In this document: positions 35,696 to 57,945 of the stretch, one piece after another
How the letters are laid out: every line of letters starts with the position of its first letter
Numbering within the stretch: position 1 is the stretch's first letter
NCBI GenBank assembly: GCA_020851635.1
Contig: JADZCJ010000053.1
Location: forward strand, 1 to 64,000
DNA from: Anaerolineae bacterium
GTDB taxonomy: Bacteria > Chloroflexota > Anaerolineae > UBA4142 > SHND01
DNA length: 64,000 nucleotides
Reading direction: 5' to 3'
Notes under the pieces: model-generated
Seen by the model: only the letters and a program-made list of their open reading frames with translations
Database searches by the model: none
Told to the model about the DNA's origin: nothing
Made by a program: the position numbers and the translations under genes

Positions 35696-36541
35696 ATGAG
35701 TCGGGCGCCGGTTTTTTTGCGTGAATCACAGAATGCGGATGGCGGATGGGGCTATAAACGCGGGGGTATGTCCTTTGTGGAACCAACCGCCGCCGTCATG
35801 CTCGCCCTGTTCCGGAGCAAAGAATCGGACGCTCAAGTTCAGCACGCGCGCCGATTTCTCACGTCGCTCCAGCACGCCGATGGGGGTTGGGGGGTTGCCG
35901 CAGTGGACGAGGAAAGCGGGTGGATGACCGCGTGGGCGATGTGGGCGCTGGCAACTGCAGAGAACGAGGCGACAGCGCGCGGGCAGTCCTGGCTGCTCGA
36001 GTCTGTGGGTATCCGGGTAACAGACCCGAAGCAGGTGCAGGGCATTCAGAAGGTCTTGAAGATTGACCCGCGCGTTACCGGATGGGCATGGCAGCCGGGT
36101 GATGCCGCCTGGGTTTTTCCCACCGCGCTCACGCTGCTGGCGCTCGACGCGCTGGGTGTGCGCGACCACCCGCGCGCGCAAGAAGGGATTCAGTATCTTT
36201 TGGACCGCGCAATTCCGTCCGGCGGGTGGAACATTGGCAATCCGTTTATGGTTTCGGGAACGCTGCCGCCGACGGTCGAGTGCACTGCGCTCGCGCTGAT
36301 GGCGCTGCACGCGTTCAGGGTGGAAAACGCAAGCACGGGACGCGCGCGCGACTATATCGCGCGCGAGGACTTTACACAGACCGCGTTCGAATGGGTCTGG
36401 CGCGCGCTGTGCTGGCAGAAAACCGGTGCGCCAACGAAACGCGCATTTGACGCGCTGGCGAGACTGGAGAGCGCGGATGGAAGTTTTGACGGGAATGTGT
36501 TTACGACGGCGCTGGCGGTAATGGCAGGGTTGGGACAATGA
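35696..36541 (+). CDS. Prenyltransferase / squalene-cyclase-type repeat protein
   Basis: 281 residues of helical alpha/alpha repeats. Several QW-like motifs are visible: LRESQNADGGWGYKRGG, TSLQHADGGWGVAAVD, LLDRAIPSGGWNIGNPF and ARLESADGSFDGNVF. It is shorter than squalene-hopene cyclases (over 600 residues), and the catalytic DxDD motif is not seen. It may therefore bind an isoprenoid rather than cyclise one. It overlaps the DUF362 gene by 4 nt and heads the plus-strand glycosyltransferase cluster. No ribosome-binding site is clear. Confidence 0.75.
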   Translation: MSRAPVFLRESQNADGGWGYKRGGMSFVEPTAAVMLALFRSKESDAQVQHARRFLTSLQHADGGWGVAAVDEESGWMTAWAMWALATAENEATARGQSWLLESVGIRVTDPKQVQGIQKVLKIDPRVTGWAWQPGDAAWVFPTALTLLALDALGVRDHPRAQEGIQYLLDRAIPSGGWNIGNPFMVSGTLPPTVECTALALMALHAFRVENASTGRARDYIAREDFTQTAFEWVWRALCWQKTGAPTKRAFDALARLESADGSFDGNVFTTALAVMAGLGQ

Positions 36542-37557
36542 GAATTTCGCGGCGGGCGCTGCTGCGGTTGACGCTGGCAGGGGGAATTGTCGCGGGCGGC
36601 GCGGTCATTTTCAAACAGACAGAGGATGTTGGATTTGATAAATGGCTGCGCTGGATGGCGCGCGGGCAGGCGGCGCGTTTTGCGATGGGGTCAAGGGTCG
36701 CGCTTGCGGGGGTCCCTTCCTATGAAGCCGACATTCGCGCGGCGATTCGCGCCATCTGGCGCGACGCGCAAGGACCGGATTTGAGGGGCGCGAGGGTTGT
36801 CGTCAAGCCGAACCTTGTTGATTTTGTGGCGGGGCGCCCGTGTTACACCATGCCCCAGGTGACAGGCGCATTGATTGATTTTCTGCGCGACGAAGCGGGC
36901 GTGCGCTCGGTCGTCGCGGCAGAGGGCGTGACGTTTCGGCGAGACCCGCACGCGATTTTGATAGACACGGGGTATCGCGATTTGCTGCAACAAAAAGATG
37001 TCGAGTTTGTGGACTTGAATTATGACGACCTGGTGAAAATTCCTTTACGCGGCGGTTATGCCAAAATGGATTCGCTATTTATGGCGCGGACGGTTGTGGA
37101 AGCGGATGCGCTGATTTCAGTGCCCAAACTCAAGACGCATCATTGGACTCGCATTTCGGCGAGTTTGAAAAATCTGTTTGGGATTGTGCCGGGCGCAAAA
37201 TACGGCTTTCCAAAGAACACCCTCCATTTTCACGGGATTGATGCCTTTGTCGCGGAATTGTGGGACTCGCTGCCGACGCCCAACCGGTTTGCGCTGGTGG
37301 ATGGAATCGTGGGTTCGCAGGGTGATGGTCCGCTGTTGGGAACGCCTGTCGCCAGTGGTGTTTTGATTGGTGGCAGCGATTTTCTGGCGGTGGATGCAAC
37401 CGCCGCGCGCGTGATGGGGTTCGAACCTGCCAACATCGAGATTCTGGCGTTCATGGCGTGGGCGGGGTTGGGGCAAATTGATACCCACAAGATTCAATTG
37501 AGCGGCACGCCGCTCGATGCGTTGCGCCGCGACTATGAACCCGCGCCGCAGGTGTGA
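36538..37557 (+). CDS. DUF362 domain protein with TAT-like leader
   Basis: 339 residues. The N-terminus SRRALLRLTLAGGIVAGGA resembles a twin-arginine signal. The DUF362 core is present: VVVKPNLVDF, DALISVPKLKTHHWTRISAS, LKNLFGIVPGAKYG and DATAARVMGFEP. No 4Fe-4S motif is present, unlike many family members. Family function is not established; some members sit in electron-transfer or cofactor pathways. The start overlaps the preceding gene (ATGA), indicating they are made together. The next glycosyltransferase begins 15 bp downstream. Confidence 0.8.
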   Translation: MRISRRALLRLTLAGGIVAGGAVIFKQTEDVGFDKWLRWMARGQAARFAMGSRVALAGVPSYEADIRAAIRAIWRDAQGPDLRGARVVVKPNLVDFVAGRPCYTMPQVTGALIDFLRDEAGVRSVVAAEGVTFRRDPHAILIDTGYRDLLQQKDVEFVDLNYDDLVKIPLRGGYAKMDSLFMARTVVEADALISVPKLKTHHWTRISASLKNLFGIVPGAKYGFPKNTLHFHGIDAFVAELWDSLPTPNRFALVDGIVGSQGDGPLLGTPVASGVLIGGSDFLAVDATAARVMGFEPANIEILAFMAWAGLGQIDTHKIQLSGTPLDALRRDYEPAPQV

Positions 37558-37572
37558 TGAGATGACACGGTC

Positions 37573-39621
37573 ATGAAAAACTCGCCGCGGCAATCGTTTC
37601 TCGTCCTGCTCGCCATTTTGTGGATGTTTGTTGTCGTCCTCCCGTATTACCTGTTTCACCATCCGTTCGATCAGAATAATGTTTTGGGGATTGTCAGCAC
37701 ACTGGGCGATCTGGGCGTCGTGACGCTGTTGATTGTGCTCGCGAGCGCGCTGGGGCATCGTGTTTTGCGCGCGTTCGAGTTTCTTTCGGCGCTCGAAGCA
37801 TTAGTGATCCAGACTGCGGTCGGCTATGGAATAATCGCATTCGCGGTTTATGCGCTTGGATTTGTGGGACTGGTGCAGCCGCCGGTCTTTTGGGTGCTGA
37901 CGGTTGGCGGGACGCTGGCGTTATTTCGGGACGTGCGGTCCGTTGCAATCCAGGCGCGTTCGATAGCGCTGCCGCGCGGGACGCGCGGCGGGCAGCTCCT
38001 GGCGTTGTTTGTTGGTTTTTCGCTTGTGCTGGCGCTGGCGTTTGCGCTGACGCCGCCGACGGGTTGGGATGGGATTCAATATCATTTGGTGTTTCCCAAG
38101 CTGGCGCTGGAAGCGGGACGTTTTGCCACTCCGCCGGATAATCTTTCGCTGAGCAATCCGTCGCTGGTCGAACTGCTTTTTCTTGCGGCGATGGGGCTCA
38201 AGAGCGACAGCGCGGCGCAGGTCATTCATTGGAGTTTTCTGGTTTTGACCGTGGGGGCGGCGCTGGCGTTTGCGGCGCGCTATTTTACATGGCGCATCGG
38301 GTGGCTCGCGGCAGCTCTGTTGGTGGGAGCGCCTTCTGTGCTTGCCGTTGCAACGTGGGCATACAACGACGCGGCATTGATGTTGTATACGCTGACCGCG
38401 CTGTTTTGGACGCTGCGGGCGCTGGAAACGGGCAAGGCGCGCGATTTTTTGTTGGCGGGCGTGTTGGCGGGGCTGGCGCTGGGCGAAAAGTATACGGCAT
38501 CGTTTGTGCCGCTTGCGCTGGGGGCTGTGGTGTTGTTTCGGGGTGGGTTGAAATTTCCAAGCGCGCGGGCGTGGCGCAACGCGATTTTGTTGGGCGGCGC
38601 CGCCTTTGCGCTGGCTCTGCCGTGGTATGTGCGAAATTATTTTCTGGTCGGGAACCCCGTGTATCCATTTGTGTTTGGCGGGCTGTATTGGGATGCGTGG
38701 CGCACGGCATGGTATTCGCGTTTTGGCACGGGACTGTTGAACGAGCCGCTTCAATTGCTGTTTGTGCCGTGGACGGCGACGGTAATGGGGTTCCAGGGCG
38801 GCGAGTTTGACGCGACGATTGGCGCGCTGTTGCTCGCACTGCTGCCGTTCAATCTGCTCAAGCGGACGGAAGCGACGTCAAGCGCGCCGACCCGCGTCAT
38901 GTGGTTCCTGGTCGCGGTGTTGTTTGCTTTCTGGCTGGTTGGGGTCGCGCAATCGAAACTGTTGTGGCAGACACGTTTGCTGTTTCCCGCGTTTCCAATT
39001 CTGGCAATCCTTGCGGCGGAGGGGTGGAATCGGCTGTCGCAGATCCAGACGGCGCGTTTGTCGGCGCAGCGATTTGCCTCGCTCGTCATTGCGCTGGCAT
39101 TGGGTCTGAATGTGGCGAGCAATGTGCTGGCGACGATTCGCAATCGTCCGTTCGAGATACTGACGGGGATCGAGACGCGGCAGGAATATCTGGCGCGGAA
39201 TCTGGGCGCGCATTTTGCCATGACGGAATGGGTGAATGCGAATTTGCCGCCGGACGCGCGTATTGTCGCGCTCTGGGAGCCGCGTTCGTATTATGTGGAC
39301 CGCGCGATGGAACCCGACGCGATTTTGGACCGCCTGGCGCATCTGACCTCGCTGACGGAGGGAAATGCCGATGTGATCGCCGAGCGGTGGCGGCAACAAG
39401 GGTTCACGCACGTACTGTTGTTTCGCGAGGGCTTGAACGGGATGCTGCAATCGGGGTATGACCCCGTTGGAGCTGTGGAAATGGAAACCTTGCAGGCATT
39501 GGAGCAGAAACACTTGCAGCTGGTGTATGGGGGCGCCGCGTTGGAGCTGGCGAGCTGGGGCGGGATGCCCGCCCTCGCCGATCCGGAAACAGAACCGTAT
39601 GCGATCTATGTCCTCAGATAA
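37573..39621 (+). CDS. GT39-like multi-membrane glycosyltransferase
   Basis: 682 residues with about twelve helices. The large first outer loop contains LTPPTGWDGIQYHLVFPKLA and DNLSLSNPSLVELLFLAAMG, in the position of the GT-C acidic motif (WD). A soluble tail of about 100 residues has EWVNANLPPDARIVALWEPR, a pattern also found in several neighbours and typical of GT39-like bacterial proteins. Presumed to use a lipid-linked sugar donor. It is followed by a GT87-like gene overlapping its last 14 bases. Confidence 0.75.
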   Translation: MKNSPRQSFLVLLAILWMFVVVLPYYLFHHPFDQNNVLGIVSTLGDLGVVTLLIVLASALGHRVLRAFEFLSALEALVIQTAVGYGIIAFAVYALGFVGLVQPPVFWVLTVGGTLALFRDVRSVAIQARSIALPRGTRGGQLLALFVGFSLVLALAFALTPPTGWDGIQYHLVFPKLALEAGRFATPPDNLSLSNPSLVELLFLAAMGLKSDSAAQVIHWSFLVLTVGAALAFAARYFTWRIGWLAAALLVGAPSVLAVATWAYNDAALMLYTLTALFWTLRALETGKARDFLLAGVLAGLALGEKYTASFVPLALGAVVLFRGGLKFPSARAWRNAILLGGAAFALALPWYVRNYFLVGNPVYPFVFGGLYWDAWRTAWYSRFGTGLLNEPLQLLFVPWTATVMGFQGGEFDATIGALLLALLPFNLLKRTEATSSAPTRVMWFLVAVLFAFWLVGVAQSKLLWQTRLLFPAFPILAILAAEGWNRLSQIQTARLSAQRFASLVIALALGLNVASNVLATIRNRPFEILTGIETRQEYLARNLGAHFAMTEWVNANLPPDARIVALWEPRSYYVDRAMEPDAILDRLAHLTSLTEGNADVIAERWRQQGFTHVLLFREGLNGMLQSGYDPVGAVEMETLQALEQKHLQLVYGGAALELASWGGMPALADPETEPYAIYVLR

Positions 39622-40861
39622 CGTTTACGCAAAAGAGCTGGTCGTAAAAGGGGAGAGTCGCCGCGTGTGGATGTGGATTACGGCGGCAATAGGTCTGGTT
39701 GTGTTGTATGCGGCGCTGGCGTTTGGAATTTACAGCGGCTTGACGCGGACGGCGCAGGGGGCGAATGATTTTTATTCGCGCTGGATGGGCGCGCGGGCAT
39801 TATTTGTGAACGGACAGAACCCCTATTCTGACGCGGTGACGCGCGATATTCAGATGGGGATGTATGGACGACTCGCGCGACCTGACGAGGACCAGGTCGC
39901 GTTTGCGTATCCGCTGTTTGCCGCGTATATCGCCGCGCCGCTCGTGCTGCTGCCGTATCCGATGGCACAAGCATTGTGGATGGCGCTGCTGGTCGTCGGT
40001 GTGGTCGCAGGCGCACTGGCGCTGGCAAAAGTGAATCAGATTCCATTGCCACCCGGCACGCTCGCGTTCGTTTTGCTGGGGGTATTGCTTTTTTATCCCA
40101 CGGTGCGCGGGATCATGCTCGGACAATACGCGTTGGTGTCGTTCGCCTGTGTGGCAATCGGGATTCTGATGATTGCAGAGGGGCGCGAGACAAGCGCGGG
40201 CGTGCTGCTGGCGCTGGCGGCGGTCAAGCCACAACCAATCGTGCTGCTGCTGCCCGTGATCCTGATGTGGGCATGGTGGAACCGCAAGCGGTCGGTGGTG
40301 TGGAGCGCGTTTGGGACATTGGGGCTGCTGGTCATTTCATCGTTTTTGCTCGTTCCGACATGGGTGAGCGATTTTTTGGCGGGATTGGGGAACTATGCGC
40401 GGTATGCGCCAGTAGGTCCGCCGCTAGAGACGTTTTTCACGTTGCTCCTGCCGGGTGTTTGGGCGTCGGTTTTTACCTGGGGCGCGAGCGCGGCGCTGCT
40501 GATGTGGGCGGGCGTCGTGACGTGGCGCACGCGCAATTATACCTGGTATGAATTTCAGCCAACATTGGGTTTTGTGGCGTTGGTGACGACGCTGGCGGCG
40601 GGACGCATCGGGACGCCGGACCAGGTTTTGCTGCTGCTGCCGTGGATGGCATGGTTCGGGGTTTGGCGCGCGCAAGGCACACCCGTCGTGACAATCCTGT
40701 GCGCGGCGGCGCTGCTGGCGATTCCGTGGTTTGTATTTTTGAGATTGCTCGAAGGGAACCGGGAAGCAATTGTGGTGACGACGCTCCTGCCAGTGTTGAC
40801 GTTGGGTGTGTATTTGATCGTGACGCTGTTTGCGGCGCGCCCGCGCGGGTTGGCGACATGA
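39608..40861 (+). CDS. GT87-like (DUF2029) membrane glycosyltransferase
   Basis: 417 residues, start ATG 39608 inside the end of the previous gene. GANDFYSRWMGARALFVNGQ and NPYSD in the first loop, LGQYALVSFACVAIGI in the middle and LALAAVKPQPIVLLLPV are the DUF2029/GT87 signature. Mycobacterial members add alpha-mannosyl residues from polyprenyl-phosphate mannose to surface lipoglycans; here the sugar is unknown. It overlaps the next gene by 4 nt. Confidence 0.85.
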   Translation: MSSDNVYAKELVVKGESRRVWMWITAAIGLVVLYAALAFGIYSGLTRTAQGANDFYSRWMGARALFVNGQNPYSDAVTRDIQMGMYGRLARPDEDQVAFAYPLFAAYIAAPLVLLPYPMAQALWMALLVVGVVAGALALAKVNQIPLPPGTLAFVLLGVLLFYPTVRGIMLGQYALVSFACVAIGILMIAEGRETSAGVLLALAAVKPQPIVLLLPVILMWAWWNRKRSVVWSAFGTLGLLVISSFLLVPTWVSDFLAGLGNYARYAPVGPPLETFFTLLLPGVWASVFTWGASAALLMWAGVVTWRTRNYTWYEFQPTLGFVALVTTLAAGRIGTPDQVLLLLPWMAWFGVWRAQGTPVVTILCAAALLAIPWFVFLRLLEGNREAIVVTTLLPVLTLGVYLIVTLFAARPRGLAT

Positions 40862-42396
40862 CATGGCTGCGATGGAAATACGCGCCCATCGCGGCGATTC
40901 TCGCGTTGGCGTTTGCGCTGCGTCTGGTGGCGATCGAGACGCGCCCTTTGTGGTATGACGACGCATTCAGCGTGTTGTTGGCGGAACGGGGTCCCGCCGC
41001 GATCGCGCGGGGGACCGCGGCGGATACGATGCCGCCGGGTTATTACTTGATGCTCTATGGCTGGATGAGCGTGATGGGGCAGACGCCGCTTGCGATGCGG
41101 ATGCTTTCGGTCGCGCTTGCGATGTTGGTGGTTGCGCTGACATATGCGGTCGCCAAACGCGGGTTTGGGGCGGGCGCGGGGAATTGGGCAGCGCTGCTTG
41201 TGGCGTTGATGCCGTTCCAGATCTATCACGCGCAAGAACTGCGGATGTATACGCTGTTGGCTCTGGGGGGATTGATCTATGTGTACGGGGTATTGGTGTT
41301 GGCATTGCCGACGAATGGGATTCGACCGTCGAACGGGGCAGAGCCGGACGCATCGCACAATCGCGGTAAGGCAATTACATTTATTGCAGTGGGGACAGCG
41401 CTGGCATTGTACGCGCACAATTTGGCGTTTGTGACATTGTTGGCGGGGAACATTTACTTGGTCTTGCGCGCGGCGGTGTATCGGCAGGCATGGCGCATGC
41501 AAGGCGAACTGATTGCGGGGCAGCTGCTCGGGACGATTCTGTTCGTTCCGTGGCTGTTTTACGTACCGACTCAGCTGGAAAAGATTCAGACCGCCTTTTG
41601 GACGCAGACGCCCGGATTGGTGGATGCGGTGCAGATGGCGCTGGTGTTTACAACGTATCTGCCTCTGCCGCCGTCGTTGATTGTGTTTGCATTGATCGTT
41701 TCGATGCTGGTCTTGATTTTTGCGTGCTGGCAGTTGGTCCGATTGGCTCGAAAGAAAAGAATGCCCGCGCTCGGACTGGTTTCGGCATTTTTGGTGATTC
41801 CGCCGTTGATCCTGTTTGCGCTTTCCTATCTGATTCGTCCCGTGTTTGTGCCGCGGGCAGTGATTGTGTCGGCACTGGTGTATGCGATGCTGTTGGGCAT
41901 GTTGGTGGCACGCGCCTCGCGAAAACTGCAGATTGGCTTGGGTGTGGTCGCGTTCGGGCTTGCGGCGGCGCTGCTGCCTTTTTATTATTCCGCTTTTGGG
42001 GAATGGCGGCGCGCGCCGTATGTCGGCGCGGACGCGTTCTTGCGGGCACAAGTGATGAATGGGGATGCTGTCGTTCACGACAATAAGCTTTCGTTTTTTC
42101 CGATGCATCTCTACGACAGGGCGCTCGCGCAGGTGTTTCTCGCGGACCCGCCGCAATCGGACAATGACACACTGGCGCCCGCGTCGCAAGAGGCAATGGA
42201 ATTGTTTCCGACCGAATTCCGGGCGGCGGTCGCCGGACGGGAGCGTGTGTGGTTTGTGATTTATCGGACGGCGATTCAAGAAGCGCAAGCCGCGGGGAAA
42301 CCTCATGGAAATCTCGCGCGGCTGGATGGACAGTTTGAGCGCGTGCAGGAAACGAATTATGGCGACCTGGTCATCGTTCTCTATACAGCTCGCTGA
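40858..42396 (+). CDS. GT39-like membrane glycosyltransferase
   Basis: 512 residues. IETRPLWYDDAFSVLLAERG carries the acidic GT-C motif, TMPPGYYLMLYGWMSVMG follows it, and PFQIYHAQELRMYTLLALGG is the loop typical of the ArnT/PMT superfamily. About ten helices and a short soluble C-terminus. Translationally coupled to the GT87-like gene before it (ATGA overlap) and overlapping the PIG-V-like gene after it by 38 nt. Confidence 0.85.
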   Translation: MTWLRWKYAPIAAILALAFALRLVAIETRPLWYDDAFSVLLAERGPAAIARGTAADTMPPGYYLMLYGWMSVMGQTPLAMRMLSVALAMLVVALTYAVAKRGFGAGAGNWAALLVALMPFQIYHAQELRMYTLLALGGLIYVYGVLVLALPTNGIRPSNGAEPDASHNRGKAITFIAVGTALALYAHNLAFVTLLAGNIYLVLRAAVYRQAWRMQGELIAGQLLGTILFVPWLFYVPTQLEKIQTAFWTQTPGLVDAVQMALVFTTYLPLPPSLIVFALIVSMLVLIFACWQLVRLARKKRMPALGLVSAFLVIPPLILFALSYLIRPVFVPRAVIVSALVYAMLLGMLVARASRKLQIGLGVVAFGLAAALLPFYYSAFGEWRRAPYVGADAFLRAQVMNGDAVVHDNKLSFFPMHLYDRALAQVFLADPPQSDNDTLAPASQEAMELFPTEFRAAVAGRERVWFVIYRTAIQEAQAAGKPHGNLARLDGQFERVQETNYGDLVIVLYTAR

Positions 42397-43753
42397 ACGA
42401 TGGCGGGCGCTCGATCCCGCGTGGCGTTGGTCTTGTGGGGTATTTGTCATGGCGCGGGTCTTGTATTCGTTGTGGACAGTTTTGATTTTGATGTTTGTGC
42501 CTGCCGTGACCCAGAATCTGGACCTGTTTGGCAGTCCGATTCTTGCGACTTTCGATTTGGGCACGAGCGAACGGTATGTGTATTCGCGACAGGTGGGCGA
42601 GCGCGTGTTGACGTTTCGCGGCGGCGAAAATGGGGCGGTGACAGATAACGAGACCGGGAGCGTCTGGTCGCTGCGTGAGGGGGTGGCGACCGGAGGAGCG
42701 TTGGCAGGCACGTCGCTGCACGGTTCGACCATCACAGCGGAAGAGGTTTTTCCCTATCATGGCGTGAGCGCGGAAGGTGGTTGGTTTGGCATCTGGCAGC
42801 GTTTTGATGTGTTGTGGTATCAGGCAATTGCCGAAAAAGGGTATGGCGCGACGGCGGGCGACGCGCACTTTCCGCCATTGTTTCCTCTGATGGAGCGCGC
42901 GTTGGGGACGCTGTTGGGCGGACGCAATTTTCTTGCGGGTTGGCTGATTTCGCAGATGGCGCTGGTCTGGAGTCTGGCGCTGTTGTATCAATTGACCAAA
43001 CGGTGGCGTGATGCGGGCGCGGCGCGGCGGGCGGTTGTGTTTGCAGTTTTGCTGCCGACCGCCTTTTTCTATTTTACGGCGTATTCCGAGTCGCTCTTTT
43101 TGTTGTTGTCGCTCTTGGTATTTGTCATGTTGGAGCGTGAACGATGGGTGTGGGCGGGTGTGTTTGTGTTTCTTGCCATTCTGGCGCGCTTGCAGGGAAT
43201 CGCGCTGCTGGCGCCGCTTGTATATTGCGCGTGGCAAAATTGGCGCGCGGGCAAAAGAGTCCCGGTGGAGCAGATATTGATGTTTGTGTTTCCGTTTGCG
43301 GCGGGCTTGGGATATCTCGCGCTGCGCGCGTGGGCGGGCGAAACAAATATTTTGCCGACGAGCGAACCGCAGTTGAACGCGCGACTCGCGCCTCCGTGGG
43401 AGAATGTGTTTTACGCAGTTCGGGTGATTGCTTCCGGTCAATTTCTGGTCGCGGACGTCTTGAATCTTGCGGCGACCACGCTGGCGCTCTTGCTTGTCGT
43501 GCGCGGGTGGCGTATCTTGCCGCGGGCGTACGCGCTCTATAGCGTGGCGATGATCGTGGTGGTGATGCTGCGCTATGTGGATACTCAGCCGTTGAACAGC
43601 ATGACGCGATATTTGTTGACGCTTTTTCCGCTCGTCATGCTGTTGGCGTATTGGAGCAAGAATCGTTGGATCGAACGCGCCGTGGTGTATGTGTGTGCGC
43701 CGCTGAACCTCTATTTGTGCGCGCAGTTTTTTACGTGGGGGTGGGTGGCTTAG
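42359..43753 (+). CDS. PIG-V-like (mannosyltransferase-type) membrane glycosyltransferase
   Basis: 464 residues from ATG 42359. IWQRFDVLWYQAIAEKGYG gives the D-x-x-W-Y motif. AHFPPLFPLMERALGTLLGG, LPTAFFYFTAYSESLFLLLS and ILARLQGIALLAPLVY are the signature loops of the PIG-V/GT76-like family, which transfers mannose from dolichyl/polyprenyl-phosphate mannose. A long first outer loop (about residues 45-135) is unusual. It overlaps the convergent GT87-like gene by 4 nt at the 3' ends. Confidence 0.82.
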   Translation: MATWSSFSIQLAERWRALDPAWRWSCGVFVMARVLYSLWTVLILMFVPAVTQNLDLFGSPILATFDLGTSERYVYSRQVGERVLTFRGGENGAVTDNETGSVWSLREGVATGGALAGTSLHGSTITAEEVFPYHGVSAEGGWFGIWQRFDVLWYQAIAEKGYGATAGDAHFPPLFPLMERALGTLLGGRNFLAGWLISQMALVWSLALLYQLTKRWRDAGAARRAVVFAVLLPTAFFYFTAYSESLFLLLSLLVFVMLERERWVWAGVFVFLAILARLQGIALLAPLVYCAWQNWRAGKRVPVEQILMFVFPFAAGLGYLALRAWAGETNILPTSEPQLNARLAPPWENVFYAVRVIASGQFLVADVLNLAATTLALLLVVRGWRILPRAYALYSVAMIVVVMLRYVDTQPLNSMTRYLLTLFPLVMLLAYWSKNRWIERAVVYVCAPLNLYLCAQFFTWGWVA

Positions 43754-44754: not shown

Positions 44755-44919
44755 GGCGCTCCGTAAAGTAGTCATAGCAAGCCAGCGCCGCGAAACTATC
44801 TCAAATGAAAGGCGAGACCGTAGGGATGCGAAATCCGCCGCTTGTCACAAGATCATCCGGTTGCAAGCAGTCGTTCTGAGCGAGTTTCCAAAGTAAACAT
44901 CGAGAGAATTGTGAAAAGA

Positions 44920-49174: not shown

Positions 49175-50319
49175 TGTTACGCTTGATTGCTTTTGCGCGC
49201 GACAACACCTTTCCCATCGCTCTTTTTGCGGTCCTGCGCGTCTGGACACTGGTGTGGGCGAGTGTTGCAGGCGCGCTTGTTTTACCCTCGGCAGAGGCGA
49301 CAAAACATTATTATGGGATAGAGCCGTTGAAGGACGCGGTACTTGCGCCCTGGCAACGTTGGGACACGATCTGGTATTCAAAAATTGCCCTGGAAGGATA
49401 TGCGGCGGATGAGCGTATTGTGTTTGCGCCGCTGTATCCGCTGTTGATGCGATTAGTTAGCCCTCTGACGGGCAACCAAGTCGTCGCGGCGGGACTGCTG
49501 ATTTCGAGCATCGCAGTTCTGACAAGTTTCATCCTGCTGTATCGTTTGGGGCGCGAAATGTTCGACGAGTCCGCCGCGCGGCGAACGCTGCTGTTTCTGG
49601 CGGCGTTTCCGACTGCATTTTATCTGTTTGCTGCCTATACAGATGCACTCTATCTGGCGCTGGCATTAGGTTCGTATCTCTGTGCGCGCGGAAAACGGTG
49701 GGAGTGGACCGGGGTTCTTGGCGGGCTGGCTGCGTTGACGCGCCCCCAGGGCGGCGTTTTGGTGGCGGCGTTGGCCGTCGAGTTTTATTTACAATATCGC
49801 AGGCGGGAAATTTCGCTCTACAGGAGCTGGCCACTCTTGTTGGTCATTCTTGGCAGTGTGATCCATTTGGCATGGGTAACCGTGCAATTTGGCACGCCTG
49901 CCGTATGGATGCAGGCACAAACAACCTGGCACCGGGGAGTGCTGCCATGGGAGGCACTGTTCGCGACACTGCGAGTGGTTATTGCCGCACCATCGCTTTT
50001 TGACGCGGGCATTAGTTTTTTCAATTCGTTTGCAGCCCTGCTGCTTTTGAGCGGGACCGTTTGGAGTGCCCGGCGGCTGCCGCTGTCCATGACAGTCTAT
50101 ATGGCAGCAATTGCCCTTCCGCCTCTTTTTGTGATCACAACCTACTCGGCGCACTATCCCCTGACTGCCACGTCCCGGTATGTTCTGATGGCATTTCCCC
50201 TGTTTTTGCTGGTCGGCGCGCAGCACAGGAGCTGGTGGCAGCTGCCCGCACTGGCCGGCTCATTTCTACTGCAAACCGTGTGGATGATGCTGTTTGTGGG
50301 GTGGGTTTTTGTCCACTGA
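49174..50319 (+). CDS. PIG-V-like membrane glycosyltransferase
   Basis: 381 residues. PWQRWDTIWYSKIALEGYAA with the D-x-x-W-Y motif, IVFAPLYPLLMRLVSPLTGN, FPTAFYLFAAYTDALYLALA and LAALTRPQGGVLVAALAV match the PIG-V/mannosyltransferase family and its neighbour at 42359. Start at ATG 49174 overlapping the previous stop. Ends the first plus-strand run; a terminator follows. Confidence 0.85.
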   Translation: MLRLIAFARDNTFPIALFAVLRVWTLVWASVAGALVLPSAEATKHYYGIEPLKDAVLAPWQRWDTIWYSKIALEGYAADERIVFAPLYPLLMRLVSPLTGNQVVAAGLLISSIAVLTSFILLYRLGREMFDESAARRTLLFLAAFPTAFYLFAAYTDALYLALALGSYLCARGKRWEWTGVLGGLAALTRPQGGVLVAALAVEFYLQYRRREISLYRSWPLLLVILGSVIHLAWVTVQFGTPAVWMQAQTTWHRGVLPWEALFATLRVVIAAPSLFDAGISFFNSFAALLLLSGTVWSARRLPLSMTVYMAAIALPPLFVITTYSAHYPLTATSRYVLMAFPLFLLVGAQHRSWWQLPALAGSFLLQTVWMMLFVGWVFVH

Positions 50320-50380: not shown

Positions 50381-50412
50381 GCGGAGCGATTCTCCAGCGC
50401 TCCGCTTTTTTT
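50381..50412 (+). terminator. Rho-independent terminator within the glycosyltransferase cluster
   Basis: Stem GCGGAGCG (50381-50388) / CGCTCCGC (50398-50405) followed by seven T. It lies 60 bp after the PIG-V-like gene and just before the GT2 gene. Confidence 0.85.
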
Positions 50413-50433
50413 CGCACGCGCAAGGGGTGACCT

Positions 50434-51534
50434 ATGCAATCGGGTGTGATTGTCGAACCCTCATTTAGGAACGCAACCTCACAGGTGGCGCAAACGATAC
50501 CGACACAGGACGCCGAAGCGGCGCTTGCGTTCTGCCGCACGTTGGCACAGACGCTGAATGGCAATGCGCCGCTTGCCAACACGGCTGCCGTGCAAGCCGG
50601 ATTGAACCGTCCGATCTTGTCTGTAGTGATTCCGGTGTGCAACGAGCAAGAGAACCTGGAAGAACTCTATGGGCGGCTCACGCGCGCCCTTGAGAGCGTT
50701 GAACCCGATTTCGAGATTCTGTTTGTGGACGACGGGAGCCGCGACCGCAGTCTGGGCATTCTGACGCGGATGGCACAGAACGACGTGCGCGTCTCGGTCA
50801 TTGCATTTGCGCGCAATTTCGGACATCAAGCTGCCATCAGCGCGGGATTGGACCAGGCGCGCGGAAACGCCGTGGTGGTAATGGATGCGGACCTGCAAGA
50901 CCCGCCCGAAGTGTTGGGGCAATTCATCGCCAAATGGCGGGAAGGCAATGATGTGGTATATGCCATCCGCGGGCAGCGCAAAGAGGGTTGGGTTTTGCGA
51001 ACTTGCTATGCGGCGTTCTACCGGCTTTTGCAGCGAGTGGCAAACATCGAGATTCCGCTCGATGCGGGTGATTTTTGCATCATGGACCGGCGCGTGGTGG
51101 ACCTGCTGGTCAACATGCCGGAACGCAATCGGTTTGTGCGCGGGATTCGCAGCTGGGTTGGTTTGCGGCAGATTGGTTTGAAATATGATCGCGCGGCGCG
51201 CTTTGGCGGAGCAACGAAATACAGCTACAGTCGTTTGGTTGCGCTGGCGTTGGATGGGTTGGTGTCATTCAGTTATGTGCCGCTGCGTGTGATTTCGATG
51301 GCGGGGATCGGCGTGTCTATCATTTCCATTCTGCTGGCAATCATATATGCGATTCAAAAAGTCTTTTGGGGACTGTCGCCACCCGGTTTTCCTACGACCA
51401 TCGTCGCCATTTTTTTCCTCGCGGGGATCCAGCTGATCACGATTGGGTTGATAGGCGAATATGTAGGACGGATTTTTGAGGAGGTGAAACGCCGACCGAT
51501 GTATGTAGTACGACAGGTGATCCGGAAATCGTGA
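50434..51534 (+). CDS. Polyprenyl-phosphate glycosyltransferase, GT2 (DPM1/GtrB-type)
   Basis: 366 residues. About 60 non-conserved N-terminal residues are followed by the GT2 domain: LSVVIPVCNEQENLEELYGR, FEILFVDDGSRDRS, ARNFGHQAAISAGLDQARG and VVMDADLQDPPE (DxD). Two C-terminal helices (ISMAGIGVSIISILLAIIYA and AIFFLAGIQLITIGLIGEYV) are typical of GtrB-like enzymes that make polyprenyl-phosphate-linked glucose or mannose. That product is the donor used by GT-C enzymes, which abound in this cluster. AAGGGGTG lies upstream. Stop overlaps the next start. Confidence 0.9.
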   Translation: MQSGVIVEPSFRNATSQVAQTIPTQDAEAALAFCRTLAQTLNGNAPLANTAAVQAGLNRPILSVVIPVCNEQENLEELYGRLTRALESVEPDFEILFVDDGSRDRSLGILTRMAQNDVRVSVIAFARNFGHQAAISAGLDQARGNAVVVMDADLQDPPEVLGQFIAKWREGNDVVYAIRGQRKEGWVLRTCYAAFYRLLQRVANIEIPLDAGDFCIMDRRVVDLLVNMPERNRFVRGIRSWVGLRQIGLKYDRAARFGGATKYSYSRLVALALDGLVSFSYVPLRVISMAGIGVSIISILLAIIYAIQKVFWGLSPPGFPTTIVAIFFLAGIQLITIGLIGEYVGRIFEEVKRRPMYVVRQVIRKS

Positions 51535-52724
51535 TGCGAATCCTGATGCTGAACAACGAGTTCCCGCCCATGGGCGGCGGAACAGGGACAGTGAACCGCG
51601 CACTGTTGACGCATTGGGCGCGGGTGCCAAATCTGGAAATTGACCTGGTCACCTCTGCGCTTGGACAGGATTATGGTCAAGAGAAATTTGCAGAACGCGT
51701 GCAGCTGTATTTTGTCCCGGTCAACAATCAAAACCTGCATCATTCATCGAATCGGGAGTTGTTGACATACGCCGCCCGGGCACTGCCGTATGCGTTGAAA
51801 TTGCATCGCGCTAATCCGTACGATTTTGTGTTTGCATGGAGCGCCGTCCCGGCGGGGGCGGTTGCGCTGGCGCTCAAAATGATGACGGGGTTGGGTTATT
51901 TTGTCCGCGCGTGTGGTCCTGATATCCCGGGGTTCGAGCAGCGTTACGGCGCGTTGTACCCGATCCTGACACCCACGATTCGCGCGACGTGGAGAAATGC
52001 AATGCGGGTGATCGCCAAATGCGAGGATGAAGCCAATCTGATTCGGCAGGTAGATGCAAGAGTGGGTGTTACGATCGTTCCGAATGGAGTTGAGCTTGCT
52101 GCCTTTTCACCAGCAGAGATTCCCGACAAAGGTGCGCTGCGTATTTTGTGCGTGGCGCGCCTGATCGAGCGCAAGGGGCAGCACCACTTGCTTGAAGCGG
52201 TGAAGAGATTGACCGACGAGGGTGTGGAGGTGACGCTCGATCTCGTCGGCACGGGAGATGCCCAAGACGCCAACGAGCATCAGGCGCGCACATTGGGCAT
52301 TTCGAATCGCGTCCGTTTTGTCGGCTATGTGCCCCGGGAAGAAATCGCTGTTCATTATTCGAACGCGCATATATTCTGCCTGCCTTCGTACAACGAAGGC
52401 ATGAGCGTGGCGACCTTGGAGGCAATGGCGGCAGGACTACCCCTGGTCGTGTCGCGCACGCCGGGACCGCGCGAATTGGTTCAAGAGAATGGCAACGGAT
52501 TATTGTTTGATTGGGGAGATGTGGAGGCGCTGACAAGCCATTTACGCTATATGGCAAATCATCGTGATGTAGCACGGCGCATGAGCGCAGTGTCGCGTGA
52601 GCGGGCGGCGCGGTTTGCGTGGGAGGATGCGGCGGGCAGGTATGTGGAGATGTTTCGCAGAATTTCGCGCCCCGATCCTGCCAGCGCCGCCCTGCAAACG
52701 CGGGAATTGCACGAAACAGCGTAG
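51534..52724 (+). CDS. GT4-family glycosyltransferase
   Basis: 396 residues of GT-B fold. The N-terminal MRILMLNNEFPPMGGGTGTV is the nucleotide-free half opening. The C-terminal half has LRILCVARLIERKGQHHLLE, DLVGTGDAQDANEHQ and FCLPSYNEGMSVATLEAMAA, whose two Glu residues bind the nucleotide sugar. It transfers a sugar from a nucleotide donor on the cytoplasmic side, for example in building a lipid-linked oligosaccharide. Overlaps the GT2 gene by one base. Confidence 0.92.
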   Translation: MRILMLNNEFPPMGGGTGTVNRALLTHWARVPNLEIDLVTSALGQDYGQEKFAERVQLYFVPVNNQNLHHSSNRELLTYAARALPYALKLHRANPYDFVFAWSAVPAGAVALALKMMTGLGYFVRACGPDIPGFEQRYGALYPILTPTIRATWRNAMRVIAKCEDEANLIRQVDARVGVTIVPNGVELAAFSPAEIPDKGALRILCVARLIERKGQHHLLEAVKRLTDEGVEVTLDLVGTGDAQDANEHQARTLGISNRVRFVGYVPREEIAVHYSNAHIFCLPSYNEGMSVATLEAMAAGLPLVVSRTPGPRELVQENGNGLLFDWGDVEALTSHLRYMANHRDVARRMSAVSRERAARFAWEDAAGRYVEMFRRISRPDPASAALQTRELHETA

Positions 52725-52756
52725 AGAAGGTGTCCTCTTGTTACATACCGGTCAAT

Positions 52757-53785
52757 ATGCTTGATGTTTCCTCGTTGGGTTCCTCTTTGTCCGCGCGATT
52801 GATGAGAATTCGATTCTCGCGCGCAAGCCTCTGGATCAGTGTCAAAATATTTCTCGCGTTCGGACTGTTGGCGCTTTTGCTCTCGCGTACGTCGTTTGCA
52901 GAAATTGCAACTGCGCTGCAGGGCGCTGCCCCATTGTGGTTGGCGGCGAGTTTTGTAATATTCTGCGCCAATATCTATGTCATGGCGCGGCGGTATTGGC
53001 TGCTGATCGAGAAAGCTCCCCCATTTCCGAGCCTTTTGAGCTTGGTCGTTATCCAGACTTTATTCACAAACCTGGTCGCTTCGGGCGCTGGAGCAGTTTC
53101 GTATGTGGGGATGTTGCGGGGCAAACACAAGGTAAGTGCGAGAAAAAGCATTGCTTCCCTCGTTGCAGCCAGAATAGGGGATGCGGTGATTCTGTGGATT
53201 ACGTTGGCGTATTCGAGTTGGTTGGTGTGGGAGCAGATACAGCCATTACATTGGCTTATCATTGGCATCCTGACAGGATTGACTAGTCTCTTTGTCTTTG
53301 GTGCACTCGTGCTATGTTTCCATAAGCGCATAGCCAAGCGGGCAGAGTGGTTGATATACAGAATGCACCTCAACCACGTGTCGCCCGTCAAGGACTTGAA
53401 CCGAGCATTTGCTGCGATTGCGGAAATATCCGTGTCGGATTTGGTCCGAGTCGGCATGGCTGTCACCGGATGGTCCGCGTTGCTCGGATTGCTGCACATT
53501 GCCTTTGGCTTTTGTAACATGCAAATATTTCACATCTCGGTTGCGCCCGCGGCAGTCTTGTTTACTGTCACCCTAGTCCGATTGATCAGCTTGTTGCCGA
53601 TTCAGGCGTTTGGTGGTTTGGGGGTGAATGAAGTGACCGCAATCACCCTGTACGGTTATTTTGGGGTTGATATCACGCTGTTAGCTCCCGCACTATTTGG
53701 CATGCGCGTGTTGTATTACGCATTCAATTTTTGCGCTCTGATCTATTTACCATTCGAGAAGGAGCTCGAAGCGAGGACGGGATGA
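52757..53785 (+). CDS. UPF0104/LPG-synthase-type transmembrane protein
   Basis: 342 residues with about eight helices. ANIYVMARRYWLLIEKAPPF, LVASGAGAVSYVGMLRGKHK, ISLLPIQAFGGLGVNEVTAI are the UPF0104 signature (lysylphosphatidylglycerol-synthase-TM/AglD-like family). Family members flip or handle lipid-linked sugars or aminoacyl lipids. Between a GT4 and a GT39-like gene, a role in moving polyprenyl-phosphate sugars across the membrane is a reasonable inference. Start ATG 52757 has a weak ribosome-binding site. Confidence 0.82.
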   Translation: MLDVSSLGSSLSARLMRIRFSRASLWISVKIFLAFGLLALLLSRTSFAEIATALQGAAPLWLAASFVIFCANIYVMARRYWLLIEKAPPFPSLLSLVVIQTLFTNLVASGAGAVSYVGMLRGKHKVSARKSIASLVAARIGDAVILWITLAYSSWLVWEQIQPLHWLIIGILTGLTSLFVFGALVLCFHKRIAKRAEWLIYRMHLNHVSPVKDLNRAFAAIAEISVSDLVRVGMAVTGWSALLGLLHIAFGFCNMQIFHISVAPAAVLFTVTLVRLISLLPIQAFGGLGVNEVTAITLYGYFGVDITLLAPALFGMRVLYYAFNFCALIYLPFEKELEARTG

Positions 53786-53878
53786 ATTTCAGATACATGA
53801 TGAATCGTGCAGCGCGGCAAGGGAATGTGACACACCGTAGCGCACCAGCCAACAGAGACGCATGGGACCAGGCTCCGC

Positions 53879-55408
53879 GTGGCTAGATGTTTCGGGAAAT
53901 GGATGGTAGTTGGATTCCTGGTCTTGTCAGTGATTGGGATGTTTGTGTTTCTGGATAGTACGCCCGCTGTGGATTGGGATGAGGGATGGACCTTTGATCT
54001 CGCGCGGAATTGGGTAGAGCGGGATTTTTACGGTCGAGAATTGAATGGCGCGCCCGCGCCGCCGGGGTTGGCAGCATCCTTTCCGGTCGTTGCAACGGTT
54101 GCACTCTCTTATAGACTCTTGGGGGTCGGCATATGGCAGGGGCGAGTCCCGGCGGCGGTGCTGATGTTGAGCGCGCTGGCGGTCTTTTTTTGGCTGGTCA
54201 TGCGTTTGTGGGATCTGCGTATTGGACTGGCGGCTCTTGTGCTTGTAATTTTGCTCGCCCCTCACCCGCGCGCGAATGCATGGTGGATGGCGCGACAATT
54301 GTTTGCCGAGCCGCTGATGATTATGGCGATCCTCAGCGGTTTTGCATGTCTACTCCTTGCGAGACTGCATACGCGGCTCTATTATGGCTTGGCTGCGTTG
54401 AGTTGGGGAACGGCGTTGTTTGCGAAAATACAGCCAATGCCATTTGTCGCGATCACGCTGATGATCCTGGTTCTCCTGAACCTCCTGAATCGGCGGCGTT
54501 CAATGGCGCTGTGGATTTTGGGAGTGGCTCTCGGCGCGATTGGGGTGTGGCGGTTGTGGGGCGTTGTTCATCAGTGGATGATTACCGGACACACCATGCC
54601 GGTACGAGCGATGTCCGAGTCTTACCTTGTCTTTGGCTGGGTCTTTACTCGCGAGATTCGGCTGACCGCACTGATATTTGCGCTGTTGGTCGGAACTCCC
54701 ACAATTCTGGGGTTGCTCCATTTTGTGTATTCGCGGCTGCGCGGCAGGCAGTTTCTTGTGCTGCAAGACAACGCGGATGACTTGCGGATCGGGTTATGGG
54801 TTTTTGCGTCAGCGTGGCTGGCGTGGTTCATCGGAGCGGCGCACGCGGGCATACCGCGCTATATCTTTCCGGCGGTCCTGATTGGTGCCCCATTTGCCGC
54901 CCTGATGTTTTCGGATTTGACGGCCGGGTTTGACCTGCGGACCACGTTTGCGCGCATGATGACGCCGCTGCGAGAGCTCAAATTCACACGGCAAAGCGCC
55001 GGCGCGTGGCTTGCCTTTTTGCTGATCTTGTTTTATTTGCCGCTGACTCTCTCGATTGGGTGGGCGACTTGGGATGCGGCTGAAGGGCTGGAAGTCACTG
55101 CCACTGCCGAGTACTTGAACAAAAAGACTGCGCCGACCTCGAGGATTGAAACTTATGAAAGCCCCCTTTTCTTGTATCTGGAACGAGACTATCATTTCCC
55201 TCCCGATGCCCTGCACCTGGAACTGAACAAACGTGCGGCGCACTTGGCGGCGGTGGTTCAGTATGACGCACTGCAAGCGGACCCGGATTATTTGGTGGTG
55301 GGACCGACAGGAAGAAACTGGAAATTGTACGATGACGTTATTGCGGACGGGGATTTTCGTCTAGTGAAAGCGTTCGGGCAGTACATGATTTACGAGCGGG
55401 TGCGGTAG
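53879..55408 (+). CDS. GT39-like membrane glycosyltransferase
   Basis: 509 residues from GTG 53879; ATG 53903 is a possible alternative. DSTPAVDWDEGWTFDLARNW carries the GT-C acidic motif, and PRANAWWMARQLFAEPLMIM is in the second conserved loop. About ten helices and a C-terminal soluble stretch (YDALQADPDYLVVGPTGR). Membership in the GT39/ArnT-like group is inferred from motif position and neighbours. The 93-bp gap before it holds no clear promoter or gene. Confidence 0.78.
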   Translation: MARCFGKWMVVGFLVLSVIGMFVFLDSTPAVDWDEGWTFDLARNWVERDFYGRELNGAPAPPGLAASFPVVATVALSYRLLGVGIWQGRVPAAVLMLSALAVFFWLVMRLWDLRIGLAALVLVILLAPHPRANAWWMARQLFAEPLMIMAILSGFACLLLARLHTRLYYGLAALSWGTALFAKIQPMPFVAITLMILVLLNLLNRRRSMALWILGVALGAIGVWRLWGVVHQWMITGHTMPVRAMSESYLVFGWVFTREIRLTALIFALLVGTPTILGLLHFVYSRLRGRQFLVLQDNADDLRIGLWVFASAWLAWFIGAAHAGIPRYIFPAVLIGAPFAALMFSDLTAGFDLRTTFARMMTPLRELKFTRQSAGAWLAFLLILFYLPLTLSIGWATWDAAEGLEVTATAEYLNKKTAPTSRIETYESPLFLYLERDYHFPPDALHLELNKRAAHLAAVVQYDALQADPDYLVVGPTGRNWKLYDDVIADGDFRLVKAFGQYMIYERVR

Positions 55409-55421
55409 GGGTTGACGTTCT

Positions 55422-55429
55422 GCTATAAT
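55422..55429 (+). promoter_or_regulatory. Extended -10 box of an apparently leaderless gene
   Basis: TGCTATAAT (extended -10, TG at 55421-55422 region) ends 9 nt before ATG 55439. There is no Shine-Dalgarno in between. Transcription is expected to start about 1-3 nt from the start codon. Confidence 0.5.
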
Positions 55430-55438
55430 CGCCCGGAC

Positions 55439-56389
55439 ATGGTGAAATCCCGTCGAGCTTTTTTATGGCGTTTGCTGCTCTTGCTCGTCGTTGCGGTCGT
55501 CCCGGCGAGTCTGGCAGTCGCGTTGTCGCCCCCTCCCGCCCCCGATCTCGAAGAAATCGCGGAGCGCACGGCGAACGAGTTGGACCGCTTGATTCAGCTT
55601 AGGATGCAGCAGGTGTTTACCATCGCCGCGTTTCCCTCGATTCGGGCGTATGCGGCATCCTCACCCGAGACGCGCTCGCAGCGCGCGGCGGTCGCGCTCA
55701 ATGAACTACAGTCGTGGGTGTCGTCGGATACGGATGTGCGCGAGGCGTTTCTCACCGATGCGCAGGGTATCGTGATCATGGCGACGCGCGAAGGGTGGAA
55801 CAGTGATGTGAGCGCGCGAAAGTTTGTGCAAGAGGCGCTCGGAGGACAACTGGCAGTATCGCCGATTGCCAAAGACCGCGGCGAATTTTCCACATACTAT
55901 GCCGCACCCGTGCTCAACAATAGCAAAGAGATTGCGGGCGCTCTGGTGGTTCGTGTGGCGGCGCAAGAGATGTGGGGAGTGACACCACACGGCGATGGAT
56001 ATTCGACGATTCTGACGGATGAGAACGGGGTGCGGCTGGACGATTCCGGTATGCCCGCATTTCGGCTGACGGCGTTGGGCTCGCTGGATGTCGGGCGCGC
56101 GACGGACATTCTCAATTCGCAGTTGTATGGGGCGCAGCAACCTCAAATCTTGAGCACAGGTTTGGAGCAGGCACAGGAAATTGTGCGGCGAGGCGCGCTT
56201 GACGAATTGAGACCGGCAGACCTGAACGCGGGCAGGGTGGGCGCCCGGCGGTTGGTGAGCAAACCATGGTATGTGCTGCTTGTCGCGCCGCAGGCGTCGT
56301 TCGGCGAGATGATGATCAAATATGCCATCCCGTTCGGCGCGGCGGTCTTGATGGCACTGGGCGGCGCGCTGCTGCTGGAACGGATTTGA
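55439..56389 (+). CDS. Orphan Cache-like sensor domain membrane protein without output domain
   Basis: 316 residues. One N-terminal helix (LLLLLVVAVVPASLAVAL), an extracytoplasmic region of about 250 residues with helix then PAS-like strands (REAFLTDAQGIVIMATREGW, GEFSTYYAAPVLNNSKEIAG, GYSTILTDENGVRLDDSG), and a closing helix (YAIPFGAAVLMALGGALLLE), after which the protein ends. This resembles the sensor part of dCache receptors, but the usual HAMP, kinase or GGDEF domain is missing. The stop overlaps the next gene start by one base, so it is made with a GT39-like enzyme. Confidence 0.65.
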   Translation: MVKSRRAFLWRLLLLLVVAVVPASLAVALSPPPAPDLEEIAERTANELDRLIQLRMQQVFTIAAFPSIRAYAASSPETRSQRAAVALNELQSWVSSDTDVREAFLTDAQGIVIMATREGWNSDVSARKFVQEALGGQLAVSPIAKDRGEFSTYYAAPVLNNSKEIAGALVVRVAAQEMWGVTPHGDGYSTILTDENGVRLDDSGMPAFRLTALGSLDVGRATDILNSQLYGAQQPQILSTGLEQAQEIVRRGALDELRPADLNAGRVGARRLVSKPWYVLLVAPQASFGEMMIKYAIPFGAAVLMALGGALLLERI

Positions 56390-57945
56390 TGGCAATCGAA
56401 TCGAAAACGTCGGGGCGGAACGAAATGGGTGAGGGGCAGAGAAGATGGGTCTCTGTCCTTTTTTGCTTTGTCGCGGCAGGGCTGGCGGTCACTTTTTATA
56501 TCCTGGTTGCCTATTGGCAGAATGGTGAGTTTGGTTTTCCGCTCGATGACGCATGGATTCATCAGGTCTATGCGCGAAACCTCGGAACCCGTCTCGAGTT
56601 TTCATTTTTTGCAGGCAAGCCCAGTTCCGGCTCGACCTCGCCGTTGTGGACGATATTGTTGAGCCCCGGGTATGCGCCGGGGATGGATTTTCGCGTTTGG
56701 ACGGCGCTGCTCGGCGTCGTCTTGCTCGGGGCATCGGGTTGGATGGCAGGGCGATTGGCGCGGCATTTGACGGATGACGCGCGCGTTGTGAATTGGTTTG
56801 CGCCGCTGCTGGTGGCGTTGGAATGGCACATGGTATGGGCGGCAGCGAGCGGGATGGAGATTCTGTTGTTTGTATTCCTGGCGCTGGCGCTTGTCGAGCG
56901 TTCCCTGGCGGTGGATTTTGACCGGGACGTTCGAATGCGCGGGTTTGTATTTGGCGGAGTGATAGCGGGATTGTTGACGTTGACGCGACCGGAAGGAATT
57001 GTGCTGGCGGGGTTGGTTGGGTTGGGTCTGGTCTTGGCGATCGCGCAGCGAGCGAGGGCAAGCCAAGGAATTGATGTGGGCAAGAGATTCGCCGCCGTCG
57101 GGGTGTATGGGATTGTCGTTGGCATCGTTCTTGCCCCGTATCTGTTTTTCAATCTTCAGACCGGCGGGACGCTTTTGCCCAACACATTCTATGCCAAAGG
57201 CGCCGAGTATGCGTCACTGACGCATGGCACGAGTTTTTTTGTGCGTTGGGCGACGATGTATCGGCAGCCGATGATCGGCGCGCAATTGCTGCTCATCCCG
57301 GGGTTGATTTACCTGATGCGGGTATATCTGGGTGGGCGCGAATGGCGGCGTCTGATGCCGATGATGTGGATCGTGGCGCTGCCCGCGCTGTATGCGTGGC
57401 GGCTGCCCGTCGAATATCAATTTGGGCGTTACATGATGCCCATCATTCCCTTTGTAATGGTGTTTGGCGTTGTCGGCGTCGCGCAGCTCTTGCCGCGCAT
57501 CTCGCTGCGCGCGATGAGGCGAGCGTGGGCGCTGGCGATCGGTGCGCTGCTGGTTGTGTTTCTGCTGCGCGGCTCGACGTTTTACGCGCAAGCGGCGGGA
57601 ATTGTCAATTGCGAAATGGTGGCGGTGGCGAAATGGACGCGGGCGAATCTGCCACCCGGCGCGCTGCTCGCAGTGCACGACATTGGCGCGCAGGGATACT
57701 TTGACAACCATCCAATGCTGGACCTGGCGGGGCTGGTCTCGCCTAAAGTAATTCCGTTTATTCGAGAGGAGCCAAAACTCAAAGCGTGGATGATCGAAAA
57801 TGGGGCGCGGTATGCCGTATTCTTTCCAACATGGTATGCGAATTTGGGCAAGGATGCGGAACTGACACAAATTCACTCGACCGGCTGCGCGGTGACGCGC
57901 GAATTGGGCGAAGAGAATCTGGGGGTGTATCAGTTGGGACGATGA
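56389..57945 (+). CDS. GT39-like membrane glycosyltransferase
   Basis: 518 residues. FGFPLDDAWIHQVYARNLGT carries the acidic DD motif, and FAGKPSSGSTSPLWTILLSP follows; these are conserved in a GT39-like subgroup. AGLLTLTRPEGIVLAGLVGL and TRANLPPGALLAVHDIGAQG (soluble tail) complete the pattern. Last member of the cluster; convergent with fmt (35 bp between the stops). Confidence 0.82.
   Translation: MAIESKTSGRNEMGEGQRRWVSVLFCFVAAGLAVTFYILVAYWQNGEFGFPLDDAWIHQVYARNLGTRLEFSFFAGKPSSGSTSPLWTILLSPGYAPGMDFRVWTALLGVVLLGASGWMAGRLARHLTDDARVVNWFAPLLVALEWHMVWAAASGMEILLFVFLALALVERSLAVDFDRDVRMRGFVFGGVIAGLLTLTRPEGIVLAGLVGLGLVLAIAQRARASQGIDVGKRFAAVGVYGIVVGIVLAPYLFFNLQTGGTLLPNTFYAKGAEYASLTHGTSFFVRWATMYRQPMIGAQLLLIPGLIYLMRVYLGGREWRRLMPMMWIVALPALYAWRLPVEYQFGRYMMPIIPFVMVFGVVGVAQLLPRISLRAMRRAWALAIGALLVVFLLRGSTFYAQAAGIVNCEMVAVAKWTRANLPPGALLAVHDIGAQGYFDNHPMLDLAGLVSPKVIPFIREEPKLKAWMIENGARYAVFFPTWYANLGKDAELTQIHSTGCAVTRELGEENLGVYQLGR

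Follow-up and report, generated by a model that had tools for sequence, protein, structure and literature searches.

What might a bacterium build with eleven membrane glycosyltransferases of the GT-C type encoded side by side? The question is raised by positions 35696-57945 of a 64,000-nucleotide stretch (hereafter the window) of contig JADZCJ010000053.1 from an Anaerolineae bacterium (Chloroflexota; Anaerolineae; UBA4142; SHND01; assembly GCA_020851635.1). This interval contains seventeen genes, 16 on the plus strand and one on the minus strand, many of which overlap or sit a few bases apart. Eleven multi-span GT-C candidates form an array at 37573-57945, with a twelfth upstream at 32861. We found that the GT-C locus is real and conserved, with some shuffling of its genes. 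We give an about even chance to the explanation that it is a cell-surface glycan locus whose enzymes act at the outer face of the membrane. The named genes, all of which are long open frames, are as follows.

32861..34783, minus strand: gm1, GT39-like (PMT_2) GT-C protein, divergent and upstream of the array; Pfam E = 1.9e-7; 60-68% identity across the genus
35696..36541, plus strand: g1, terpenoid-cyclase-like alpha/alpha toroid at the left end; Pfam SQHop_cyclase_C, 4e-13; no signal and no DxDD motif
36538..37557, plus strand: g2, DUF362 protein (Pfam 4e-40) with twin-arginine N terminus and predicted LarA fold; left end
37573..39621, plus strand: g3, GT39-like GT-C protein (Pfam PMT_2); core
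39605..40861, plus strand: g4, GT87 GT-C protein; Pfam 3e-11
40858..42396, plus strand: g5, GT39-like GT-C protein (PMT_2); mosaic history
42359..43753, plus strand: g6, PMT_2/PIG-V-like GT-C protein with a long outer insert ahead of the acidic residue; mosaic history
43750..44775, minus strand: g7, GT87-like GT-C protein, inverted
44902..46599, plus strand: g8, DUF6541 GT-C protein; core; open frame begins at 44842
46596..48224, plus strand: g9, GT39-like GT-C protein; core; Pfam 8e-11
48269..49174, plus strand: g10, GT87 GT-C protein
49168..50319, plus strand: g11, PIG-V/PMT_2 GT-C protein (Pfam)
50434..51534, plus strand: g12, GT2, PgfS/ArnC-like; Pfam 2e-32; NCBIfam PgfS 4e-79, under that model's cutoff; accessory
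51531..52724, plus strand: g13, GT4; Pfam 6e-39; accessory
52757..53785, plus strand: g14, UPF0104/LPG_synthase_TM flippase-like protein; Pfam 2e-21; accessory
53879..55408, plus strand: g15, GT-C protein with a single 30% relative, in G005
55412..56389, plus strand: g16, dCache domain between two membrane spans, without output domain; right end; Pfam 9e-12
56386..57945, plus strand: g17, DUF2079-like GT-C protein; core; right end
57981..58907, minus strand: fmt, flanking housekeeping gene

The ends of the locus are shared across the order, where g1 and g16 were each found in 17 of 20 genomes. Six copies from two families are complete, with both ends held on one contig (the window, G003, G005, G008, G009, and G010). 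All six have the same gene order, running from g1-g2 through the GT-C array to g16-g17 and then fmt. The span from g2 to g17 measures 18 to 28 kb and includes 11 to 13 multi-span genes (the UPF0104 gene being counted where present), and g3, g5, g6, g8, g9, and g17 have counterparts in every complete copy. The sequence-only reading from which we started had named conservation of the neighborhood in related genomes as a test beforehand, and these copies bear it out.

The genome contains 52 matches to the Pfam family PMT_2 in 5.8 Mb, and since five of these fall within 12 kb at this locus, the clustering is not due to chance. Each of 40 relatives carries 10 to 60 PMT_2 matches, making GT-C richness a trait of the class. 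The distinguishing mark of this locus, for which the end genes were compared, is conservation rather than GT-C density. Additional PMT_2 clusters occur in the same genome on contigs C69, C93, C55, C6, and C27, including four matches in 6 kb on C93.

Judging from two kinds of sequence comparison, all eleven array proteins are members of GT-C-like families. Pfam assigned PMT_2 to g3, g5, g6, g9, g11, and gm1 (g5 and g6 fall just below the cutoff when scored singly), GT87 to g4 and g10, and PIG-V (Mannosyl_trans2) to g11; g8 matched DUF6541, and g17 gave a weak match to DUF2079. There was no Pfam match for g7 or g15. Profile-profile comparison with hhalign aligned g7 with g10 (E = 2e-55), g15 with gm1 (E = 5e-6), g17 with g9 (E = 3e-11), and g8 with g3 (E = 1e-7); the negative controls, the UPF0104 protein and an ATP-binding cassette (ABC) permease, gave no match below an E value of about 0.09. 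In nine of the eleven ortholog groups, the first outer loop contains an invariant acidic residue; the exceptions are g5, in which the expected residue falls under the 95% mark, and g15, which has only one ortholog. By a simple hydropathy count, each array protein has 7 to 12 membrane spans, within the range of 7 to 13 used to define GT-C enzymes.

Because the Pfam matches, the hhalign placement of g7 and g15, and the invariant acidic residue agree, we accept the count of eleven made by the sequence-only reading, and the PMT_2 match of gm1 confirms its twelfth member. The finer assignments of that reading were correct only in part. The six genes labeled GT39-like all appear to encode GT-C proteins, but g8 and g17 are better regarded as GT-C relatives than as strict GT39 members. 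Of the two PIG-V-like genes, g11 has the expected match, whereas g6 matches PMT_2, though it is related to g11. The g6 protein also carries about 100 additional outer-loop residues before its acidic residue, D150, that are kept across the order, and it has a subthreshold match (E = 6e-7) to an NCBIfam family whose name refers to the formation of cell surface glycopolymers.

Enzymes of these families could instead glycosylate exported proteins, such as S-layer proteins or adhesins, with the GT39 members starting O-glycans that other GT-C enzymes extend. The GT2 enzyme g12 is closest to PgfS, which is named for a streptococcal protein-glycosylation operon, and the C-terminal domain of g8 gives a weak match to its counterpart in archaeal AglB (3vu0; E = 0.004). 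In Actinobacteria, members of GT39 (PMT) act as protein O-mannosyltransferases (PMC11727336). However, the locus contains no gene for an exported acceptor protein, and membership in PMT_2 does not decide the acceptor, because the family covers many lipid-glycan enzymes too. We consider protein glycosylation unlikely.

A surface-glycan role is supported, if indirectly, by the way in which the inner genes have been inherited. In the trees of g1, g2, g8, and g9, genomes of the genus form one clade with support of 100/100, and they form one clade with weaker support in the tree of g3. Monophyly of the genus was rejected by the approximately unbiased (AU) test for g5 (P = 5e-54) and g6 (P = 0.002). 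Genomes G001 and G004 share 77% identity with the window in g2, 32-34% in g5, and 42-45% in g6; the corresponding values against G009, a member of another family, are 62-63%, 50-51%, and 55-60%. There are two sequence classes of g10 in the order, with a tree that is not decisive. The g7 gene has changed both orientation and place; in G009, G011, G012, and G018, its relatives directly follow g2. Exchange of the whole interior can be rejected, since g3, g8, and g9 follow the genus. The mosaic could reflect exchange between lineages or the differential loss of old gene copies. Between genomes and lineages, the locus thus combines fixed ends with inner genes that are at odds with species history. 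This is the pattern of a variable surface-polysaccharide locus, and for that reason our best reading is a variable surface-glycan locus.

The same pattern of fixed flanks and an interior swapped between lineages is found in O-antigen and capsule loci that depend on Wzx/Wzy or ABC export. In contrast to those loci, the variable genes here encode GT-C membrane enzymes rather than cytoplasmic transferases, and the Pfam results for 35696 to 58907 include no gene for Wzx, Wzy, or an ABC exporter, just as the sequence-only reading had it. Elsewhere in the genome, on other contigs, there are 13 Wzy_C and 6 Polysacc_synt matches.

With these matches in view, the enzymes might merely decorate the polysaccharide of a genomic Wzx/Wzy pathway, working as many side-by-side three-component (Gtr-type) systems. 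Side-chain additions of this sort are made by GT-C enzymes with lipid-linked donors (PMC11127046). Yet the eleven GT-C enzymes would share at most one GT2. Known three-component systems each have one GT-C enzyme with its own donor synthase and flippase. Decoration of this kind therefore seems to us quite improbable. The locus does resemble three-component extracytoplasmic glycosylation (GtrA/GtrB/Gtr GT-C and the GT136 pentofuranose systems; PMC11127046) in its type of enzyme, an outside-acting GT-C with a lipid-linked donor, and in the presence in the window of a GT2 of the polyprenyl-phosphate sugar synthase type. It differs in having eleven GT-C genes and no recognized GtrA or MATE flippase (no gene scanned matched the GtrA family), and the GT-C enzyme, donor synthase, and donor flippase of a Gtr-type system are not kept together across copies of the locus. 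A close copy of g12 occurs in one other genome of the genus only (G005), g13 has an equivalent in one other genome, and g14 has only a 29% relative, in G005. We regard these three genes as accessory because they are not conserved in other copies. The proposal that a GtrB/DPM-type GT2, a GT4, and a UPF0104 protein complete the system accordingly fails beyond the window itself, and we rejected the view of the locus as one complete system that includes them.

Assembly of lipoglycan and arabinogalactan in mycobacteria and corynebacteria (PimE GT87, Mpt, Emb, and Aft) provides a third comparison, in which many GT-C enzymes, GT87 included, work in series outside the membrane. The array is alike in its many GT-C enzymes, with GT87 among them. 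It differs in that no Emb or Aft was recognized among the Pfam results and that the genes are packed into one array.

How would a variable surface-glycan locus of this composition operate? GT-C enzymes take lipid-linked donors outside the membrane (PMC11127046). In the pathway that we infer, including its donor, acceptor, reaction order, branching, and surface-located product, polyprenyl-phosphate sugars would be made inside the cell by g12, a possible polyprenyl-phosphate sugar synthase for one donor, and by enzymes encoded elsewhere, and then flipped out. Each GT-C enzyme would then form one linkage, transferring these sugars to an acceptor anchored in a lipid or in the wall. The highly branched, lipid-linked glycan proposed by the sequence-only reading is conjectural. 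The conserved g3, g8, g9, and g17 would produce a common glycan core, and the genes that are gained, lost, inverted, or swapped (g5, g6, g10, g7, and the accessory genes) would produce a varying outer part, much as the variable genes of O-antigen or capsule loci do. The dCache protein g16 is a possible sensor of an extracellular ligand.

Several observations weigh against this pathway. The complete copies are few and all are metagenome bins as far as named records show. No genes for sugar-nucleotide synthesis, priming, or ligation were recognized in the locus, and the GT2 gene is not conserved across its copies. Furthermore, differential loss of old gene copies could also have produced the mosaic trees. 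A literature search of limited reach turned up no paper on the genes behind Chloroflexota surface glycans or on Chloroflexota GT-C loci. A locus in which the ends are fixed and GT-C genes are swapped would suggest that outer-face transferases alone can sustain antigen-like variation, and it would offer a means of typing these bacteria, most of which are uncultured.

The less expected of our results concerns the toroid/DUF362 pair, g1-g2, at the left end. Searched with the g2 family, named genomes yielded 80 relatives, mostly from metagenome bins, whose record labels include Chloroflexota, Melainabacteria/Obscuribacterales, Planctomycetota, Verrucomicrobia, Acidobacteria, Binatia, Deltaproteobacteria, Nitrospirae, and others. 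A toroid detected with the g1 profile adjoins DUF362 in 58 of the 80 and is fused to it in 15, mostly in Planctomycetota, for a total of 73. In all 58 unfused pairs, the toroid gene lies upstream on the same strand, usually no more than some tens of bases away. Of 27 Chloroflexota-type loci, 21 have GT-C genes within the next 4 kb, versus 5 of 53 others, and only two of those five are strong matches. Based on this difference, we regard the pair as a module in its own right that has come to be linked with the array in the Chloroflexota lineage; it is probably exported. The sequence-only reading had let the surface-glycan locus begin with it; the distribution across many phyla, mostly without GT-C neighbors outside Chloroflexota, marks it as separate, and a general glycan gene pair is not supported either. 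Several multi-span neighbors of the pair outside Chloroflexota (L107, L110, L131, and L146) had no Pfam match.

Individual loci of the pair show some variety. In L127, L140, and L142 (Verrucomicrobia-type or unassigned), the DUF362 gene has no adjoining toroid gene. The pair in L097 (JASEHN010000236), which is labeled Thermodesulfobacteriota, is close to the Chloroflexota ones (45%), reflecting either gene transfer or a misassigned bin. The Obscuribacterales/Melainabacteria loci L108, L117, L118, L139, L151, and L157 have the same run of genes beside the pair. That run, with two permease-sized genes, a 545-aa gene, and a 394-aa gene, resembles a peptide-type ABC transporter.

Signals for export are common in g2. 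A twin-arginine motif is present in 61 of 64 unfused g2 proteins, of which 23 outside Chloroflexota also have a lipobox. No signal was found in the planctomycete fusions or in g1, which for this reason would be either carried along with g2 or kept inside the cell. A structure prediction for the fused protein L158 (predicted template-modeling score, 0.91) suggests that toroid and DUF362 form one rigid unit. The L158 toroid is about as similar to terpene cyclases as to GH76 mannanases and C3d. With the squalene-hopene cyclase family, g1 has in common an alpha/alpha toroid and QW-like repeats. It differs from that family in being about half as long, in being found beside or fused to DUF362, and in lacking the DxDD cyclase motif, which occurs in 1 of 86 g1 homologs.

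The structure model of g2 (predicted local distance difference test score, 92.9) has a predicted LarA (lactate-racemase) fold, matching LarA-type racemases with Z scores of 15-17 over about 210 residues; the next fold scored 5.5. The fold is not itself news, because DUF362 and the LarA N-terminal domain (Lar_N) belong to one Pfam clan (PMC11770544). DUF362 profiles run against PDB sequences retrieved no LarA, which was found by fold comparison only, and Pfam matched g2 to DUF362 and not to Lar_N, a family with subthreshold matches in two planctomycete fusions. The g2 family has invariant residues H201 and K211, ten residues apart, the same spacing as between His174 and Lys184 in LarA (numbering of PMC11770544). 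Unlike the LarA superfamily, however, g2 belongs to a separate DUF362 family, with a twin-arginine N terminus and a toroid as partner or fusion. LarC was not found in any of the six genomes of the genus, and no LarE scored above the cutoff in the bacterium's own genome. The missing LarC weakens the case for g2 as an ordinary nickel-pincer racemase. Three Lar_N (LarA-type) proteins are encoded in the same genome (C32:24389, C123:912, and C105:10224), even though LarC was not found there; either the cofactor gene escaped detection or this bacterium does not make the cofactor.

Could g2 act in the pathway after all, as an outer-face LarA-type epimerase that is held by the toroid g1 and alters a hydroxy-acid group of a glycan or of a lipid-linked substrate? 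The constant orientation and the fusions of the pair, the predicted fold, the matching residue spacing, and the frequency of GT-C neighbors in Chloroflexota-type loci are all consistent with this idea. Nevertheless, such neighbors are few outside Chloroflexota, LarC is absent, the correspondence of residues is one of spacing only, and the planctomycete fusions lack a signal peptide. We therefore find the epimerase very doubtful. We put forward a broader proposal tentatively, as a possibility that is still well short of probable. Under this proposal, the pair forms a so far undescribed, usually exported enzyme unit shared by many phyla, in which a LarA-fold protein joined to a terpenoid-cyclase-like toroid acts on an isoprenoid of the membrane or on a lipid-linked substrate. 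The unit would, in Chloroflexota, head a pathway for a surface glycan in which nearly every enzyme is a GT-C and the outer part changes by GT-C swaps between lineages. No description of a DUF362-toroid pair was found in the same limited literature search. Being conserved, sometimes fused, and present in many phyla with a protein of predicted LarA fold, the pair is a clean target for biochemistry.

Two features of the window lie outside the locus. At 29959-32789, on the minus strand, there are two tandem related proteins with glycoside-hydrolase-like N-terminal parts and common motifs such as LQIFNEPxxxxEWR; the only Pfam match is a C-terminal LysM domain in the second protein. On the other side, mraZ is found at 62969-63415 (Pfam 5e-35), shortly after recJ and a NUDIX gene, and a division and cell-wall gene cluster may begin there, beside the glycan locus.

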